NCBI GenBank assembly: GCA_945874695.1
Contig: CAMCHP010000031.1
Location: 1 to 35,981 of the forward strand
Source: Chryseobacterium gleum
Lineage (GTDB): Bacteria; Bacteroidota; Bacteroidia; Flavobacteriales_D; Sanyastnellaceae
Direction of reading: 5' to 3'
Length of the DNA: 35,981 nucleotides
Part shown: positions 6,451-15,432 of the stretch, in pieces
Numbering within the stretch: the stretch's first letter is position 1
Layout of the letters: each line of letters opens with the position of its first letter
The notes under the pieces: generated by a model
What the model saw: only the letters and a program-made list of their open reading frames with translations
Databases searched by the model: none
What the model was told of the DNA's origin: nothing
Translations under genes and position numbers: made by a program

Positions 6451-8583
6451 ATGGGCAAGAACCTTGAAGCAACATATCGTTTTTGGCTCGCTGCCATTTT
6501 TGCATTCGCTGCCTGCAGTGGATTTGCACAATCGCCGGCATCGCCTGATATTGACTGCGTTACCGTGAGTAACAACGGCAACATTATTTTGACATGGACG
6601 CCTCCGGCGGATCCGAACAACCAATTCGTCTCCTATCAATTGTATTGGGCGAATCCGAATACGCTCGAAACCATTTTTATCCAAGATATTTTAAACTACA
6701 ACACCAGCAGTATTGTGGTTACTGCATACGATGGAAATGCAGCGGCAAGTTGTTTTTACTTGCAAACTACTTATGATGACGGTGCGATTCAAGCTGCAGA
6801 ACCTGGAGATTTTGCCTGCTCAATGTTCCTTGTTGTTAACGCAACGATTGTTCCCGGTTTGGCGCAACTTGGTTGGAACTTCCCTTATCTTACAGACCCG
6901 TTGCTGATCGGCGGCCAGTTCAATGTCTTGCGCGAATACCCCGCCGGCGTGTGGACAACCATTGCAAACCTCCCATATGCCCTTGGCAACAACATTTACG
7001 AGTACGCGGTTGACATTTGCGAGGCTGATCTGAACTTTCAAATCCGCTTCAGCGGTGGTTCACCTTGCAGCCATTTTTCGAATATTGACGGAGGAAGCTT
7101 TCAAGATCAAATTGATCCATCACCACCGACCATTGCATCAGTCAGTGTGGATGTGAATACCAACGATGCCGTGTTGTCATGGACGCCAAGTCCAGAACCG
7201 GATCTTTATGGCTACATCGTTTACCAGTGTTTTCCTGGCTTAAACCCGATTCCGCTTGATACAATTTGGGACGCTTCAATTACAACTTGGACCAACCCGA
7301 ATTCTACAGCCGAAATGGACTCGGAGTATTACAACATCGCCGCTTTTGACAGTTGCTTGAACGTAGGGAATTTACCCGACCCCGGACCCGCTAGTCTGAA
7401 CTGTGAAAACACTATCTTTTTAACCCACGACTGGGAACCGTGTACCGATTTCGTTACCCTAATTTGGACACCCTACACGGGTTGGGACGGCGTTTCGAGC
7501 TATCAAATTTTCGCAACCGAAGAACCGAATCCAGGCAGCGGGGTATTTCTTCCGACCGTTTTAATAGGCTCAGTGGACGGCAATGCGACCACCTTTGTGC
7601 ACGAAAACTGCAACCTAGGAAGCTCATACCGTTATCGGGTAATGGCTACTTCGGATGATTTGCTGTACACCTCAACTTCGAACCGAAGAACGGCAACCTT
7701 ATTTTATCCGGCATCACCGGCTTTCAATTACATCTCAGGTGTTAACGTAATCTCTGGGACTGAAGTTCAGGTTAATGTCCAGATTGGTCCGGGTGCCGGC
7801 ACCGAGCACACCTTTTTGCTCGAGCGCCAACGCGCAAACCTTGAGGAATTTGACATCATCGATGCGCAAAACTTAATTGGACAGGGCACCTTGCAGTTCA
7901 GTGATGATGTAACAGATACCGGTGAACGCGCATACACCTACCGCATCACGGTTGAAAACACGTGTGGTGACCTCGTTGACGAATCCAACATAGGAACATC
8001 CATTCGCTTGACGGGCGTAGTCAATCGCGATCGTTTGGTGAACACTTTATTTTGGACGCCATACAGCGATTGGGACAACGGCGTTCAGCGTTATGAAATT
8101 TTCAGAAGCACACCTGAAGACCCTTTACCCCTATTACTAGCTACTGTCCCTGGTAGTGTGACCTTTTTGGAAGATGACGTAAGTCAGCTCTTATTCACCG
8201 AAGGTGAGTTCTGCTATTTAGTTCGGGCAATCGAAGCTGACAATGGCTACACCCTGCCCGGAAGTGCAGACAGCAACGAGCGCTGCCTTACCCAAACACC
8301 GGTAATTTGGGTGCCCAATGCGTTTCTAATCAACGGCATCAACAACACCTTTCAACCGGTTATTTCATTTGCTGATTTCGACAACTACCGCCTCCAAGTG
8401 TATAGCCGGTGGGGAGATGTCGTATTTGAGACCTTCAACATAGAAGAGGCTTGGGACGGAAAGTACCGCGACAAACTCGTACCTGAAGGTTTGTACGCAT
8501 GGTTCGTTTCAGTGACCGATGGATCAGGAAGAATTTACGAAAAACGAGGCACAGTTTTCATGATGGTATACCCTGAGGATTAA
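6451..8583 (+). CDS. Secreted fibronectin-like protein with T9SS type B sorting domain
   Basis: This 710-residue protein begins with a signal peptide (cleavage expected near ACSGFAQ, about residue 27). It then carries several fibronectin type III-like modules, recognised by repeated strand motifs such as ILTWTPP (about 47), [15 protein letters not shown] (about 241), [16 protein letters not shown] (about 336) and [17 protein letters not shown] (about 531). The last two are clearly related copies. The C-terminus (about 619-710) has [22 protein letters not shown] and [10 protein letters not shown]. This is the gliding-motility/T9SS type B sorting domain, which directs export across the outer membrane and attachment or release outside. 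The protein is probably a cell-surface or secreted adhesin-like or structural protein; no enzymatic domain is visible. Paired Cys residues fit an oxidised extracellular location. Confidence 0.9.
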
Positions 8584-8653: not shown

Positions 8654-10129
8654 ATGGCATTTAACATTCATGATAAAGTCGTAGGTGAAGGTCTCACTTA
8701 CGATGACGTGCTCCTCATACCTGCATTTTCACAGGTTCTACCACGCGAGGTGAATATCCAATCGAAACTCACGCGAAACATCACCCTGAACACCCCCATC
8801 GTTTCGGCTGCCATGGATACCGTTACCGGTGTGAACATGGCTATTGCCATGGCGCGTGCTGGTGGTATTGGAGTGATTCACAAAAACATGAGCATCAAAG
8901 ACCAAGCCAATGAAGTGCGCAAGGTTAAACGTTCAGAGAGCGGAATGATTCAAGATCCGGTTACGGTGAACGACAAAGCCTTGGTCGGTGATGCACATGG
9001 CCTCATGGCAGAGCATAAAATTGGAGGCATTCCGGTTGTTGATGATAACGGAAAACTCGTTGGCATCGTAACCAACCGCGATTTGCGCTTTGAAAAAAAC
9101 GCCCAACGCCCGATTCGTGAGGTGATGACCCACGAGAACATTGTTAAGGCGACCGAAGGCACCGACTTGAAGCAGGCTGAAGAAATCTTGCAGAATTATA
9201 AAATTGAGAAGCTCCCAGTTGTTGATGCCAACGACAAGTTGATCGGCTTGATCACCTACAAAGACATCCTAAAATTGCATGAGTACCCGAACTCTTGCAA
9301 AGACCAATTTGGCCGTTTGCGGGTGGCAGCAGCGGTTGGGGTTACGGCAGACACGATTGACCGCGCAGAAGCTTTAATACAAGCTGGGGTTGATGCATTG
9401 GTTGTTGATACCGCGCACGGCCACAGCCAAGGGGTTTTGAATACCCTTCGCAAAGTTAAAGACCGTTTCCCAGACATTGAGATCATTTGCGGAAACGTGG
9501 CCACAGGTGCTGCTGCCTTAGCATTGGTTGAGCATGGTGCCGATGCCGTTAAGGTTGGAATTGGTCCGGGCTCAATTTGCACCACACGCATCATCGCAGG
9601 GGTCGGCGTTCCGCAGCTCACTGCTGTAATGGAAGTTGCTCACGCACTGCGCGGCACGGGTGTTCCAGTTATTGCTGATGGTGGTATACGTTTTACTGGT
9701 GACATTGTAAAAGCAATCGCCGGTGGTGGAGATACCGTAATGGTAGGTTCGATGCTCGCGGGCGTTGAAGAATCGCCTGGTGAAACCATCATTTTTGAAG
9801 GCCGTAGATTCAAAAGTTACCGCGGAATGGGTTCTATCGAAGCCATGCAGAAAGGTTCGAGCGATCGCTATTTCCAAGACACCGAAGACGACATCAAGAA
9901 ATTGGTTCCTGAAGGCATCAGCGGACGAGTTCCTTACCGCGGTACGACGCAAGAAGTAATGTATCAAATCATCGGCGGTTTGCGCGCAGGCATGGGCTAT
10001 TGCGGCGCACCAAACATTGATGCATTGCAATCGGCACAGTTTGTGCGGATCACCAACGCTGGAATTCGCGAAAGCCATCCACACGATGTACTTATTACCC
10101 GCGAAGCCCCCAATTACAGCATCCGGTAA
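8654..10129 (+). CDS. guaB: Inosine-5'-monophosphate dehydrogenase
   Basis: This 491-residue enzyme oxidises IMP to XMP with NAD+, the first committed step of GMP synthesis in the cytoplasm. The N-terminus [21 protein letters not shown] is typical. A pair of CBS domains (about residues 97-205) interrupts the TIM barrel. The catalytic loop [20 protein letters not shown] places the nucleophilic Cys at 309. The IMP phosphate loop [11 protein letters not shown] and the flap SSDRYFQ with its Arg-Tyr pair are present. Length and domain order match bacterial IMPDH. It stands alone with its own promoter, flanked by the T9SS gene and the SurA operon. CBS domains in this family bind adenine and guanine nucleotides, and (p)ppGpp is known to restrain GuaB in several bacteria; regulation here is inferred. 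Confidence 0.97.
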
Positions 10130-10192: not shown

Positions 10193-12184
10193 ATGAAGCA
10201 CTTCTGGACTAAACTTTCATTCTTCTTCCTTGCATTCCTCGCAACGAGTTCTGCTTTTGCCCAACCCAGCAAAGGCAGTGTGCTCAATGCTTCGGGCAAC
10301 GGCATTGTGCTCACTGTCGAAGATGAGAAGGTAACTCGCGATGACTTCGAAGCCGTTTTTAGAAAAAACAACCGAGATACAGTTGTCACCGCTGCGTCAC
10401 TTGACGAATACATGGAGCTCTTCGTGAACTTCAAGTTGAAAGTGCGCGAAGCGCGCGCCGAAGGACTCGACACTGCAGCGTCGTTCATTCGTGAATTGGC
10501 CGGATACCGCAAGCAATTGGCACGTCCATACCTTATTGACAACGACCTGCTTGATGCGCTTGTTCAAGAAGCCTATGACCGCAAACAATTCGAGGTGCGT
10601 GCGAGCCACATCCTCATTAAAGTCGATCCGAGTGCCACACCCGAAGACACCTTGCGTGCCTACAAGCGCATTATAACCTTGCGCAATCGCATTCTTGCAG
10701 GTGAATCATTTGCCGACGTAGCAACGGGCAAACAGGGTAGCGAAGACCCTTCAGTACGCGAAAACCGCGGTGATTTGGGATACTTTTCTGCTTTTCAAAT
10801 GGTGTATCCCTTTGAAAGTGCAGCATACACTACACCTGTTGGCGAAGTGAGCATGCCTGTGCGCACCCGGTTTGGTTATCATATCGTTAAAACCATCGAT
10901 AAGCGCCCAGCACGCGGAGAATTGCGCGCAGCACACATCATGTTGCGTCACAAAGACACGACCAATGCGGAAGCCAATGCCGAAGTTGAAGCGCGTATTC
11001 AAGAAATCTATAGCAAACTTGTAGCTGGGGAAGATTTTGGCGAATTGGCTATGCGCTTCTCGGCCGATGCAAGCACCGCGCGTAATGGTGGCGAACTCCC
11101 TTGGTTTGGAACCGGAAAAATGGTCGAACCCTTTGAGAACGCTGCATTTGCTCTTTCAGCGGATGGCCAAATCAGCAAACCCATTAAAACCAGCTATGGA
11201 TGGCACATCATCAAACGTTTAGAGTACAAACCGGTACCCACCTTTGCTGAAAGTGAAAGCGAAATCCGTAAAAAAGTAAGTCGCGACACCCGATCAGACA
11301 TGACCCGCCAGAGCTTCATTCGCAAATTGCGCGCTGAATATAGCACCACAGTGAACCCTAAAAGCCTTCAGCCGATTTACAAAGCGGGGGCAGCTGATAG
11401 CGCATTCGCAAGTGGACAAGGCATTCGCGTGAAAAAACAAAAGTCACTCAACAAGCCACTTTTTTCAATCGCTGATCGTACCTACACAGCACGTGAATTC
11501 TACCAGTACCTGAATGATGCACGCATCAAACGCCGCGGTGAAACGGGTAAAGAAATCATCGATCGTGAGCTCGACAAGTTCATCGAAACCGAAATCATGG
11601 CTTACGAAGATAGCCAACTTGAAAACAAGTACAATGAGTTCAGATTGCTGATGAACGAATACCACGATGGCATTCTCCTTTTCGAGTTAACCGACCGTAA
11701 GGTTTGGTCACGCGCAGTAAAAGACACAACCGGTTTAATTGCTTTTTATGAGGCCAACTTGGATCGCTTCATGTGGAATGATCGGGCAACAGCTACCGTT
11801 TACCTTTGCAACGATGAGAAAGTAGCACGCCAGGTTGAACGCTTGATTCAACGCGGCCGCACCCCCATTGAAATCAAAGACGAAATCAACAAAACGTCGG
11901 CTTTGAATGTGCGGATTGAAGAAGGAAGCTACGAACGCGGCGAAGATGAACTCATCGACGCGCTTCCATGGGAAATTAATAAGGTACAACTTCGCCCGCA
12001 CAACGGACAAACCGCAGTGGTCGTGATCACCGATGTGATACCCGCTGCGCCGAAAAAACTTGACGAAGCACGCGGAATGATTACCGCTGAATACCAAAAC
12101 TACCTCGAAAAGGCCTGGATCGATGAATTGCGTGCCAAATACAAGTACATCATTCATAAAGATGTGCTCCATACCATTCGATGA
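10193..12184 (+). CDS. Periplasmic peptidyl-prolyl isomerase with two parvulin domains
   Basis: This 663-residue protein has a signal peptide (MKHFWTKLSFFFLAFLATSSAFA, then QPSKG). Two parvulin (PpiC) domains follow, at about 135-234 (ASHILIKVD to FGYHIVKTID) and 245-343 (AAHIMLRHKD to YGWHIIKRLE). Both carry the His-containing ends and the GDLGYF/GELPWF signatures of the fold. A long helical C-terminal region with no recognised domain makes up the last 300 residues; such extensions are common in Bacteroidota PPIases. It should help unfolded outer-membrane proteins cross the periplasm. It is first in a three-gene operon and overlaps the next gene by four bases (ATGA). It is longer than E. coli SurA and is best called a PpiC/SurA-family protein. 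Confidence 0.9.
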   Translation: MKHFWTKLSFFFLAFLATSSAFAQPSKGSVLNASGNGIVLTVEDEKVTRDDFEAVFRKNNRDTVVTAASLDEYMELFVNFKLKVREARAEGLDTAASFIRELAGYRKQLARPYLIDNDLLDALVQEAYDRKQFEVRASHILIKVDPSATPEDTLRAYKRIITLRNRILAGESFADVATGKQGSEDPSVRENRGDLGYFSAFQMVYPFESAAYTTPVGEVSMPVRTRFGYHIVKTIDKRPARGELRAAHIMLRHKDTTNAEANAEVEARIQEIYSKLVAGEDFGELAMRFSADASTARNGGELPWFGTGKMVEPFENAAFALSADGQISKPIKTSYGWHIIKRLEYKPVPTFAESESEIRKKVSRDTRSDMTRQSFIRKLRAEYSTTVNPKSLQPIYKAGAADSAFASGQGIRVKKQKSLNKPLFSIADRTYTAREFYQYLNDARIKRRGETGKEIIDRELDKFIETEIMAYEDSQLENKYNEFRLLMNEYHDGILLFELTDRKVWSRAVKDTTGLIAFYEANLDRFMWNDRATATVYLCNDEKVARQVERLIQRGRTPIEIKDEINKTSALNVRIEEGSYERGEDELIDALPWEINKVQLRPHNGQTAVVVITDVIPAAPKKLDEARGMITAEYQNYLEKAWIDELRAKYKYIIHKDVLHTIR

Positions 12185-13041
12185 AAACCGCATTTCTGAT
12201 CGTGTTTAGTTTTGCGTTGTTTGCTTGTTCAAGCGACGATGACAACGCAGTACTCACAGACAGCACTACAGCTGCGCGTGCCTACGACCGTGTATTGACG
12301 TGGGCTGAAGTAGGGGCTGTGATTCCCGATGCGAGCACCCCCGAAGACAGCGCGATTTTAGCTGAACGGTACATCAACGACTGGTTGAAGGAGCAAGTCA
12401 TATTGCATACTGCTGAGCAGCGGCTGCCCGACGAGCAAAAAAGGTTCGAGGCCGAGCTCGAAGCGCACCGCAAAGCCTTGCTCACATTTGCCTACGAAAA
12501 CCTCTTCGTACAACAGCGGCTCGACACGCTCATCACTGAAGAGGAAATTCAAGCCTTTTACGATGAAAACCAGTCGATTTTCAGCTTGAACGACTACATC
12601 GTTAAAGTTAAATTTGCGGTACTCGCCAAAGACACCCCTAAGTCAAAGCTAAAGCAGTTCAGAAAACTCTTCGAAAGCGAAGATTCAGAAGACTTGGTCG
12701 CACTTGAACAATTCTGTGTAGACAATGGCGCTGCGTATTACATCGACATCGAAACGTGGATGTATTTCGAAGAACTCTTGACCAAAGTGCCGATCGATGT
12801 TTACAACATCGAGAGCTTTTTGAGGTCGACCCGATCAGCCGAATTTGAAGAGGGCGGCAAGAGCTATTATTTAAAGTTACTCGCGTACGAACTTAAAGAC
12901 GCGGTTTCACCGTTACCTTTGGTGACAAACAACATCAAGAGCATGATCCTCAACCGCAGAAAACGCGACTTGTTGGTAAAAATGCGCGACGAACTTTTCA
13001 ATGATGCTTATGCTCGAAAAGACGTCGAAAAACTGTATTAA
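12181..13041 (+). CDS. SurA-like lipoprotein without a parvulin domain
   Basis: This 286-residue protein has a lipoprotein signal (MKTAFLIVFSFALFAC) with the acylated Cys expected at 16. The sequence after Cys is SSDDDN, an acidic run resembling the lipoprotein export signal that sends Bacteroidota lipoproteins to the cell surface. The mature part is mainly helical and charged. The segment TEEEIQAFYDENQSIFSLNDYIVKVKFAVL resembles the linker that enters a parvulin domain in SurA-type proteins, but the His/Gly parvulin motifs are absent. It therefore looks like a chaperone-like relative rather than a PPIase. It overlaps the upstream gene by ATGA and is two bases from surA, so all three are co-expressed. 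Function is inferred from context. Confidence 0.75.
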   Translation: MKTAFLIVFSFALFACSSDDDNAVLTDSTTAARAYDRVLTWAEVGAVIPDASTPEDSAILAERYINDWLKEQVILHTAEQRLPDEQKRFEAELEAHRKALLTFAYENLFVQQRLDTLITEEEIQAFYDENQSIFSLNDYIVKVKFAVLAKDTPKSKLKQFRKLFESEDSEDLVALEQFCVDNGAAYYIDIETWMYFEELLTKVPIDVYNIESFLRSTRSAEFEEGGKSYYLKLLAYELKDAVSPLPLVTNNIKSMILNRRKRDLLVKMRDELFNDAYARKDVEKLY

Positions 13042-13043
13042 TT

Positions 13044-14417
13044 ATGACCCCTCGTTTATTTGCAATCGTCGCTCTCCTCTGTTCAACGCTGGTTTCAACA
13101 GTTGCACTAGCGCAGCCTGCCGAAACGCAAGGTGAAATTATTGACCAAATCATTGGTGTTGTAGGCAACGAGATTTTACTTCAAAGCGAACTTGAAAATG
13201 ACCTCTTGCAACAACGCATGCAAGGACTCGACCCCGACGGTGATAGCCGTTGTCAAACCATCGAAGACCTCCTTTTTCAGAAGCTCTTACTCAACCAAGC
13301 TCGATTCGATAGTTTGGTGGTGACTGAAGGCGAAGTGCAGTCGCAAATCGAAAGCCGCCTTGAGTACTTTCTTTCGATGTTTGGCTCAGTCGACGCTTTT
13401 GAAGCTGAATATGGCAAAACCATCGCGCAGTGGAAATCTGAATTCAGAGAACCGATCGAAGAACAGCTCCTCATTCAGCAGATGCAATACAAGCTCGAAG
13501 CGAAAGCTGACGCCACTCCCAAAGATGTGCAGCGCTATTACAAATCCATTTCCACCGACAGCTTGCCACTCATCAGCGAAGAGATTCGTTACTCGCAAAT
13601 CGTTTACCAACCTGAACCTTCGCTGGCCGAGAAAGAGGCTTTGCGCATGAAGGCTGACTCGATTCGAAATCTGGTGGCTAGTGGCCAAATGAAAATGACC
13701 ATCGCCGCACTGCGCCACTCCGATGACCCCGGATCAAAGTACAAAGGCGGGTGTTACACCGAGGTGCGCCGCGGCATGTTCGTTCCTGAATTCGAGGGTG
13801 CCGTATACAATACAGATGTTGGGAGCGTCTCAAACGTTTTCGAATCACCTTTCGGCTATCACTTCTTACAGGTCACTGAAAAACGTGGGGAGGTATTTAG
13901 CGCTTGTCACGTGCTTTTCTCGCCCAAAGTAAAAGATGAAGACCTGTTGCGGGGTGAAAGCTTTCTCGACAGCTTAGCCCAAGTCATTCGCAATGATAGT
14001 TTGGCCTTCAGCGATGCAGCCCTGCGCTACTCAACCGATGAAGAAACAAAAAATCAGGGTGGGAAGGTCGCGAACTTTCAACAAGGCGGAATGAAACACG
14101 GCGTTGATGCGCTCGAACGCGATATCTTTTTGGTTCTATCTAAAATGCAAGTTGGTGATGTTTCTGCCCCGGTTCTGCGCGAGTCGCCCGGAGGATCGCC
14201 CTACTTTGTGATTTACCGTCTCGACGACCGAAGCGCTGCCCACCAAGCCAACCTTCGCGATGATTATCTGCTCTTTAAACAAATGGCTGAAGCCGATATT
14301 CGCGAAAAGAACCTCGAAAAATGGATGGAGAAGAAACTCAAAACCACCTACATCCGTTTAAATGATGAATACCAATTGTGTTCTTTCAAATACCCTTGGA
14401 TAAACGCGAAGCTCTAA
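13044..14417 (+). CDS. surA: SurA-type periplasmic chaperone/PPIase
   Basis: This 457-residue protein has a signal peptide (about residues 1-23, ending STVALA before QPAE). The SurA N-domain follows, with IIDQIIGVVGNEILLQSEL and a later EDLLFQKLLLNQARFDSL. Two parvulin domains lie at about 181-279 (IRYSQIVYQP to FGYHFLQVTEK) and 285-394 (FSACHVLFSP to PYFVIYRLDD). The order and length match SurA, which guides outer-membrane proteins to the BAM complex. Unusual cysteines at about 237 and 288 fall in the two parvulin domains. It is the last gene of the operon, starting two bases after the lipoprotein stop. Confidence 0.9.
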   Translation: MTPRLFAIVALLCSTLVSTVALAQPAETQGEIIDQIIGVVGNEILLQSELENDLLQQRMQGLDPDGDSRCQTIEDLLFQKLLLNQARFDSLVVTEGEVQSQIESRLEYFLSMFGSVDAFEAEYGKTIAQWKSEFREPIEEQLLIQQMQYKLEAKADATPKDVQRYYKSISTDSLPLISEEIRYSQIVYQPEPSLAEKEALRMKADSIRNLVASGQMKMTIAALRHSDDPGSKYKGGCYTEVRRGMFVPEFEGAVYNTDVGSVSNVFESPFGYHFLQVTEKRGEVFSACHVLFSPKVKDEDLLRGESFLDSLAQVIRNDSLAFSDAALRYSTDEETKNQGGKVANFQQGGMKHGVDALERDIFLVLSKMQVGDVSAPVLRESPGGSPYFVIYRLDDRSAAHQANLRDDYLLFKQMAEADIREKNLEKWMEKKLKTTYIRLNDEYQLCSFKYPWINAKL

Positions 14418-14460: not shown

Positions 14461-15432
14461 ATGGCCTTACCCAATTACGCTTCAGATAAAGAAGCCCTCG
14501 ACCACCTCAAAGAAAACTACCACAAACTAACCAAAGAAATTGGTAAGGTCATCATCGGGCAAGATGAAGTGATTCAACAAGTGGTCATTAGCATCTTCGG
14601 TAACGGACACAGCCTCCTAGTTGGTGTTCCGGGCCTCGCAAAAACCCTACTGGTGAACACCATTTCTGAAGCACTGGGCCTCTCGTTCAATCGCATCCAG
14701 TTCACACCCGACTTGATGCCTTCTGACATTATCGGCTCTGAAATTCTCGATGAAAATCGCCAATTCCGCTTTGTGAAAGGTCCGCTCTTCTCAAACATTA
14801 TCTTGGCCGACGAAATCAACCGTACGCCGCCAAAAACACAAGCGGCGCTGCTCGAAGCAATGCAAGAAAAGGCCGTAACTGCTGCGGGGCAACGCTATCC
14901 GCTGCCGGCTCCGTTCTTCGTTTTGGCTACCCAAAACCCGATTGAACAAGAAGGTACCTACCCGCTTCCTGAAGCGCAACTCGACCGTTTCATGTTCAAC
15001 ATTTGGGTCGACTACCCAACTTACCAAGAAGAATTGAGCGTTGTTAAAAGTACAACCGGCAACGTGGTGAACAAGGTAAACTCGGTCATCGATGCCGAAC
15101 ACATTTTGTTCTTCCAACAACTCATTCGCAAAATGCCAGTGGCCGATAACGTGATCGAATATGCGGTGAAGTTGGCCAGTAAAACCCGTCCAGGCCGCGA
15201 AATGGCACCACAAATCGTGAACGACTTCCTCTCTTGGGGCGCCGGTCCGCGTGCAAGCCAATTCTTGGTGATCGGGGCAAAATGCCATGCTGCAATCCAC
15301 GGCAAATACAGTCCCGACATCGAAGATGTGCAAGCGGTTGCCTTCCCGATCCTCCGCCACCGCGTGGTGCGCAACTACAAAGCTGAGGCCGAAGGATATA
15401 GCGTTGAGCGCATCATTCGCGAGCTGTTTTAA
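14461..15432 (+). CDS. MoxR-family AAA+ ATPase
   Basis: This 323-residue ATPase has the MoxR signature set: VIIGQDEVIQQ, Walker A GVPGLAKT (55-62), FTPDLMPSDIIGSEIL, Walker B IILADEIN (113-120), PPKTQAALLEAMQE, and the sensor-1 segment FFVLATQNPIEQEGTYPLPEAQLDRFMF. MoxR proteins act as chaperone-like ATPases, usually with a DUF58 protein and VWA-domain proteins encoded next door. Here no DUF58 or VWA gene follows; the next gene runs the other way and overlaps its 3' end by 20 bases. It begins 43 bases after surA and could be read through from that operon, because only a weak hairpin separates them. Its partner and substrate are unknown. Confidence 0.92.
   Translation: MALPNYASDKEALDHLKENYHKLTKEIGKVIIGQDEVIQQVVISIFGNGHSLLVGVPGLAKTLLVNTISEALGLSFNRIQFTPDLMPSDIIGSEILDENRQFRFVKGPLFSNIILADEINRTPPKTQAALLEAMQEKAVTAAGQRYPLPAPFFVLATQNPIEQEGTYPLPEAQLDRFMFNIWVDYPTYQEELSVVKSTTGNVVNKVNSVIDAEHILFFQQLIRKMPVADNVIEYAVKLASKTRPGREMAPQIVNDFLSWGAGPRASQFLVIGAKCHAAIHGKYSPDIEDVQAVAFPILRHRVVRNYKAEAEGYSVERIIRELF

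Follow-up and report, generated by a model that had tools for sequence, protein, structure and literature searches.

What does a lipoprotein without parvulin motifs do between two double-parvulin proteins, and on which face of the envelope would it be held? The question is raised by a cluster of three genes in the window, the stretch of 35,981 nucleotides that was analyzed here, which comes from a source genome of 3,086,477 bases in 128 contigs. The first-pass annotation had described the middle gene product as a lipoprotein of SurA-like helical character which had lost its parvulin domain, and had proposed that the acidic residues after its cysteine might direct it to the cell surface. The features of the locus, all on the forward strand, were as follows.

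8654..10129 (+): upstream neighbor, presumably guaB (IMP dehydrogenase) judging by its translation; it lies upstream in 68/80 same-family stretches.
10193..12184 (+): PPI-A, 663 aa, with two Pfam parvulin stretches, a C-terminal half similar to the lipoprotein and, by eye, a signal peptide.
12181..13041 (+): the middle lipoprotein, 286 aa, predicted from sequence profiles to be a chaperone of the PEB4/SurA type in which the parvulin domain has decayed.
12181..12228 (+): lipoprotein signal peptide and lipobox (FALFAC), the codon of Cys16 being 12226-12228.
12229..12246 (+): SSDDDN after the cysteine, a candidate export signal that is unsteady across the family.
12613..12615 (+): residue 145 of the lipoprotein, Phe, in the column of the first parvulin active-site histidine of relatives and PEB4.
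12865..12867 (+): residue 229 of the lipoprotein, Tyr, in the column of the second parvulin active-site histidine (GYH motif) of relatives and PEB4.
13044..14417 (+): SurA-like protein, 457 aa, with two Pfam parvulin stretches, SurA_N matches that stay below the cut-off and, by eye, a signal peptide.
14461..15432 (+): downstream neighbor of the surA-like gene, which we take from its translation to be a MoxR-type AAA ATPase gene.

The layout described earlier was borne out: the coordinates were correct, each outer protein carried two Pfam parvulin stretches, and a lipobox, FALFAC, led up to Cys16, with SSDDDN after it. The three genes were tightly packed, the ATG of the lipoprotein overlapping the stop of PPI-A by 4 bases and the surA-like gene starting 2 bases past the lipoprotein stop. 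A promoter and terminator scan gave 6 and 8 sites, compared with 7.0 and 11.5 in shuffled sequences. Throughout the genome, the Pfam parvulin model PF00639 gave five matches in three open frames, namely PPI-A, the SurA-like protein and a 701-aa frame on another contig (G000:C27). Upstream of the cluster, at 6451-8583, lies a gene for a 710-aa protein, the C-terminal end of which, judged from the translation, presumably resembles a gliding-type sorting domain.

Three sets of relatives were compared. The same-family set comprised 80 of the 92 genomes with a match, the window's own genome and 11 others being excluded; the phylum set comprised 60 of 146 matches, 20 from the same class and 40 from other classes; and the named set, which overlaps the same-family 80, comprised 54 loci, 53 of them with an N-terminus and one cut off. 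Profile A1 was built from the window protein and 31 of the 80 same-family relatives (32 rows), A3 from the window protein and 51 of the 54 named loci after L185, L191 and L207 had been dropped as incomplete, and A4 from the window protein and the 60 phylum relatives (61 rows). The closest named relatives were Flavobacteriales records, and the A4 relatives shared 13-29% identity with the window lipoprotein.

Searched alone, the lipoprotein gave weak matches below the cut-off to Pfam Rotamase_2 (E 0.0021) and to an EpsD-type isomerase model (E 0.0016), no match to the Pfam SurA_N models, and no match in a PDB sequence search up to E 5. Profiles were far more informative. A1 matched PEB4/Cbf2 (3rfw; E 5.9e-5) in the N-terminal half only, from position 13 to 139 of 270; A4 matched the same structure with E 1.6e-17 over profile positions 12-258 of 265 and HP0175 (5ez1) with E 1.2e-15 over nearly the full length. 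Among the 61 A4 members, Rotamase_2 was found in 43 (E <= 0.01, best 5.7e-19) and Rotamase in 4, and at E <= 0.01 SurA_N_3 matched 6 members and SurA_N_2 matched 2. The A4 matches to PEB4 and HP0175, taken with local ones to the SurA parvulin region and to PrsA, upheld the SurA-type chaperone character that had been proposed, the fold assignment resting on sequence profiles. The middle gene product is predicted to carry a lipid anchor and to be related to SurA and PEB4, two chaperones of the envelope. Its most likely layout starts with a helical chaperone region at the N-terminus, continues with a parvulin domain that lacks the catalytic histidines and closes with a helix at the C-terminus. 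No published account of this lipoprotein was found among the open-access literature matches listed.

PEB4/Cbf2 (Cj0596) and HP0175, single-parvulin SurA-like chaperones, appear to be the nearest in kind, with a profile match from end to end and the same succession of a helical N-terminal part, a single parvulin domain and C-terminal helices (PMC12428200). The lipoprotein differs from them by its lipobox cysteine, by the absence of aligned catalytic histidines and by its two double-parvulin neighbors. The Gram-positive foldase PrsA is also a lipid-anchored chaperone of the parvulin family; its A4 matches were local and weak (E 0.00025 to 0.00065), and a lipobox is present in our protein, for which lipidation is predicted. 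Unlike PrsA, the lipoprotein has neither the catalytic motif nor the histidines, and it belongs to a diderm envelope and has a surA-like gene as neighbor. SurA belongs to the same superfamily, with a local match to its parvulin region (E 5.3e-5), and one of its two parvulin domains is likewise inactive (PMC12428200); the window protein has one decayed domain, not two, and is predicted from its lipobox to be lipid-anchored.

The proposed membrane anchor was supported. With lipobox callers that were simple rules written by the analysis author, all N-termini that were read showed a lipobox cysteine: 80/80 in the same-family set, 60/60 in the phylum set and 53/53 in the named set. The residues after the cysteine were far less constant. 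The first-pass annotation had proposed to compare them among orthologues, and had named beforehand the absence of an acidic run in them as refuting its idea; relatives with no acid in positions +2 to +7 do exist, in 12/80 same-family, 17/60 phylum and 2/53 named cases. At least two acids in these positions were found in 30/80, 16/60 and 28/53, respectively, the last being the result that leans most towards a surface location, and runs of three acids in 3/80 same-family and 2/60 phylum relatives. As background, lipobox proteins were crudely called in the window and in 40 stretches of 20 kb each (~0.84 Mb in all), the middle lipoprotein included, and here 12/32 had at least two acids, so that an acidic stretch after the cysteine is common as such; the only run of three acids among the 32 was that of the middle lipoprotein itself. 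By Fisher's test against this background, p was 1.0 for the same-family, 0.34 for the phylum and 0.19 for the named relatives, with no clear difference in any of the three. A conserved surface signal as a family trait was rejected on these counts, and the comparison did not support surface export as a property of the family.

Four distinct N-termini were found among the closest relatives (56-61% identity), reading QPKEEA, STSGEQ, TQKAEA and KSKAEA after the cysteine, three with one acid and one with two; in L074, which was counted among the 30/80, the likely cysteine was followed by DEETNV. In the same genome, the sole SusD-like protein (DKMLEY) has two acids, BamD (SDYNKV) one and LptE (GLYTPY) none. 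The sequence SSDDDN agrees with the published surface signal, for which at least two of six residues are acidic (PMC12578637), and resembles SDDDD and SDDFE, the signals worked out in B. fragilis and F. johnsoniae (PMC5080379). It could work as a surface signal in this species, because in the minimal published signal a positive or polar residue is followed by two acids (PMC5080379); QPKEEA, which was found in two relatives, likewise resembles the published signal. SSDDDN thus fits the pattern of Bacteroidota surface lipoproteins (LES), a pattern that was not kept among the relatives.

A chaperone exported by this acidic run to the outer face of the outer membrane, where it would aid the folding of surface proteins, is accordingly one reading of the locus. 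A surface-side lipoprotein of isomerase type would be no oddity among members of this phylum, since the isomerase lipoproteins BamJ and BamK, which co-purify with BamA of B. thetaiotaomicron, are inferred to be surface lipoproteins (PMC12578637), and a PPI fold is reported for BamM, which belongs to the BAM complex of F. johnsoniae (PMC12611786). These BAM-linked lipoproteins, compared here by description, share the isomerase type or fold with the middle lipoprotein and differ in that BamJ and BamK are placed at the surface; the middle lipoprotein is unmentioned in the available parts of PMC12611786 and PMC12578637. The SusD-like control and the named-genome count also point in this direction. 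However, a signal should persist if the surface function were conserved, and the counts in the same-family and phylum sets were like the background; moreover, the steady neighbor is a SurA-like gene, the relatives of which act in the periplasm. We consider a surface-side chaperone unlikely.

A second reading places the protein in the inner membrane, as a PpiD-like anchored chaperone which receives proteins from the Sec translocon. Sequence alone does not tell which membrane holds the lipid anchor, and the NCBIfam model PRK10788, which we take to be PpiD, matched 11/61 relatives at E <= 0.001; EpsD-type (30) and PRK00059 (26) models were more common. Against it stands the separate 701-aa single-parvulin protein (G000:C27), the beginning of which resembles that of PpiD. 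This alternative was judged quite improbable.

The parvulin region itself was decayed and not lost. As had been noted, none of three scanned parvulin motifs was present in the lipoprotein (0/3), and both neighbors carried motifs. The claim that the domain as a whole was missing was not sustained: the region aligns with histidine-keeping relatives, and the phylum profile aligns it with PEB4 and HP0175 as well. In the PEB4 alignment the two parvulin histidines fall on Phe145 and Tyr229. Among the 61 rows of A4, both aligned histidines were kept in 14, only that at position 229 in 11, and neither in 36, which include all 20 of the same-class rows; in A3 a histidine was found at position 145 in 0/52 rows and at 229 in 6/52. 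An HMM built from the 14 histidine-keeping relatives matched the window lipoprotein with E 3.8e-22 over model positions 7-260 of 269 and found 52/52 A3 members, 46 of them spanning from model position <= 20 to >= 240, and a profile-profile comparison gave 99.8% over 262 columns. The 14 had originally been found with profile A3, so the match back was expected; what it adds is its extension through the parvulin region. Loss of the whole domain was rejected on this match and on the A4 matches; by sequence, what has been lost is the catalytic signature.

In a maximum-likelihood tree, which was built with the two histidine columns kept in, the window protein and the 20 same-class rows, all without histidines, formed one side with 100/100 support. 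The catalytic histidines may have been lost repeatedly, because the label "none" needs 4 changes on this unrooted tree and well-supported branches force 2 of these. That the window protein still works as an isomerase, with an active site that has diverged, is highly improbable, for although both histidines in 14 phylum rows and the second in 11 more suggest that some relatives may be active, and 6/53 named relatives contain the pattern H[IVL][LM] when it is searched unanchored, Phe145 and Tyr229 occupy the catalytic columns here, histidines there are absent or rare in A3, and an FGYH-type motif was found in 0/53 relatives.

The neighborhood of the lipoprotein was then compared. Among the same-family stretches, PPI-A was found upstream in 79/80 and the surA-like gene downstream in 74/80, the open frame of the latter starting <= 60 bases after the lipoprotein in 65 of 80; of the six stretches without it, three were at contig ends and L059, L060 and L073 had none in the examined part. 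Each of the two neighbors was present in 53/54 named loci, with the misses at contig ends. Across the phylum stretches, the surA-like gene was found in 60/60 (within 60 bases in 58) and PPI-A in 53/60, which makes the lipoprotein-surA pair the steadier part of the cluster. The MoxR-type gene followed in 58/80 same-family and 45/60 phylum stretches. In four of the seven phylum stretches without PPI-A, tblastn matches fell in surA and none lay upstream. Four of the seven (L249, L253, L256 and L258) come from one family of the same class and keep the MoxR gene as well as the lipoprotein and surA; in L262, L264 and L267 two other genes, which from their translations we take to be thymidine kinase-like and nucleoside transporter-like, stand in the place of PPI-A. 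At the named contig L185 the lipoprotein frame is interrupted, and two separate open pieces match.

A lipoprotein match (E <= 0.001) was obtained in 146/296 phylum genomes; in the other 150 the protein may be absent or too diverged. Neither the trio nor the lipoprotein can be called universal from these sequences, since PPI-A is absent in 7/60 stretches and 150/296 genomes gave no match. In B. thetaiotaomicron, BT_3849, which adjoins SurA BT_3848, was considered as an orthologue and rejected, being LptD in the available part of PMC10861873.

The sequence itself shows the homology, the loss of the histidines, the lipobox cysteine and the place before the surA-like gene, and these are probably best explained by a non-catalytic partner of SurA, of SurA/PEB4 kind, which is anchored in the outer membrane and faces the periplasm. 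The periplasmic orientation has a single basis, the unsteadiness of the acidic signal. From the periplasmic face of the outer membrane, the lipoprotein would bind unfolded outer-membrane proteins without isomerizing their prolines and, together with the soluble SurA-like protein and PPI-A, would hand these clients to the BAM machinery. SurA (Bt3848) co-purifies with BamA in B. thetaiotaomicron (PMC12578637), and surA is among the listed essential genes of P. gingivalis (PMC3547785). BamC and BamE are reported missing from Bacteroidota, and BamB is probably missing from B. thetaiotaomicron (PMC12578637). As a tentative and rather doubtful extension, the lipoprotein might serve much of the Bacteroidota as an accessory factor that has so far no name, a non-catalytic chaperone tethered to the outer membrane that docks SurA and its client at BamA in a role played elsewhere by BamB, BamC or BamE. 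The protein bears on how unfolded barrels reach the unusual BAM complex of Bacteroidota: a lipid-anchored SurA relative without catalytic histidines, placed ahead of a surA-like gene in all 60 phylum stretches sampled, is a testable candidate for a tether of soluble chaperones to the outer membrane, and it would also be a case in which a parvulin domain was retained after loss of the catalytic residues.

Finally, the lipoprotein was compared with its two neighbors using profiles on both sides, the comparison of its profile with single neighbor sequences being uninformative. The best match was to the C-terminal half of PPI-A (residues 400-663), with hhalign E 8.1e-5 and a probability of 61% over 189 columns, followed by the PPI-A N-terminus (E 8.2e-4, 24%); the surA N-terminus reached 5.8%, full surA 2.5% and the PPI-A parvulins 1.8%. 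This gives a hint that the C-terminal half of PPI-A and the lipoprotein might stem from an old duplication.
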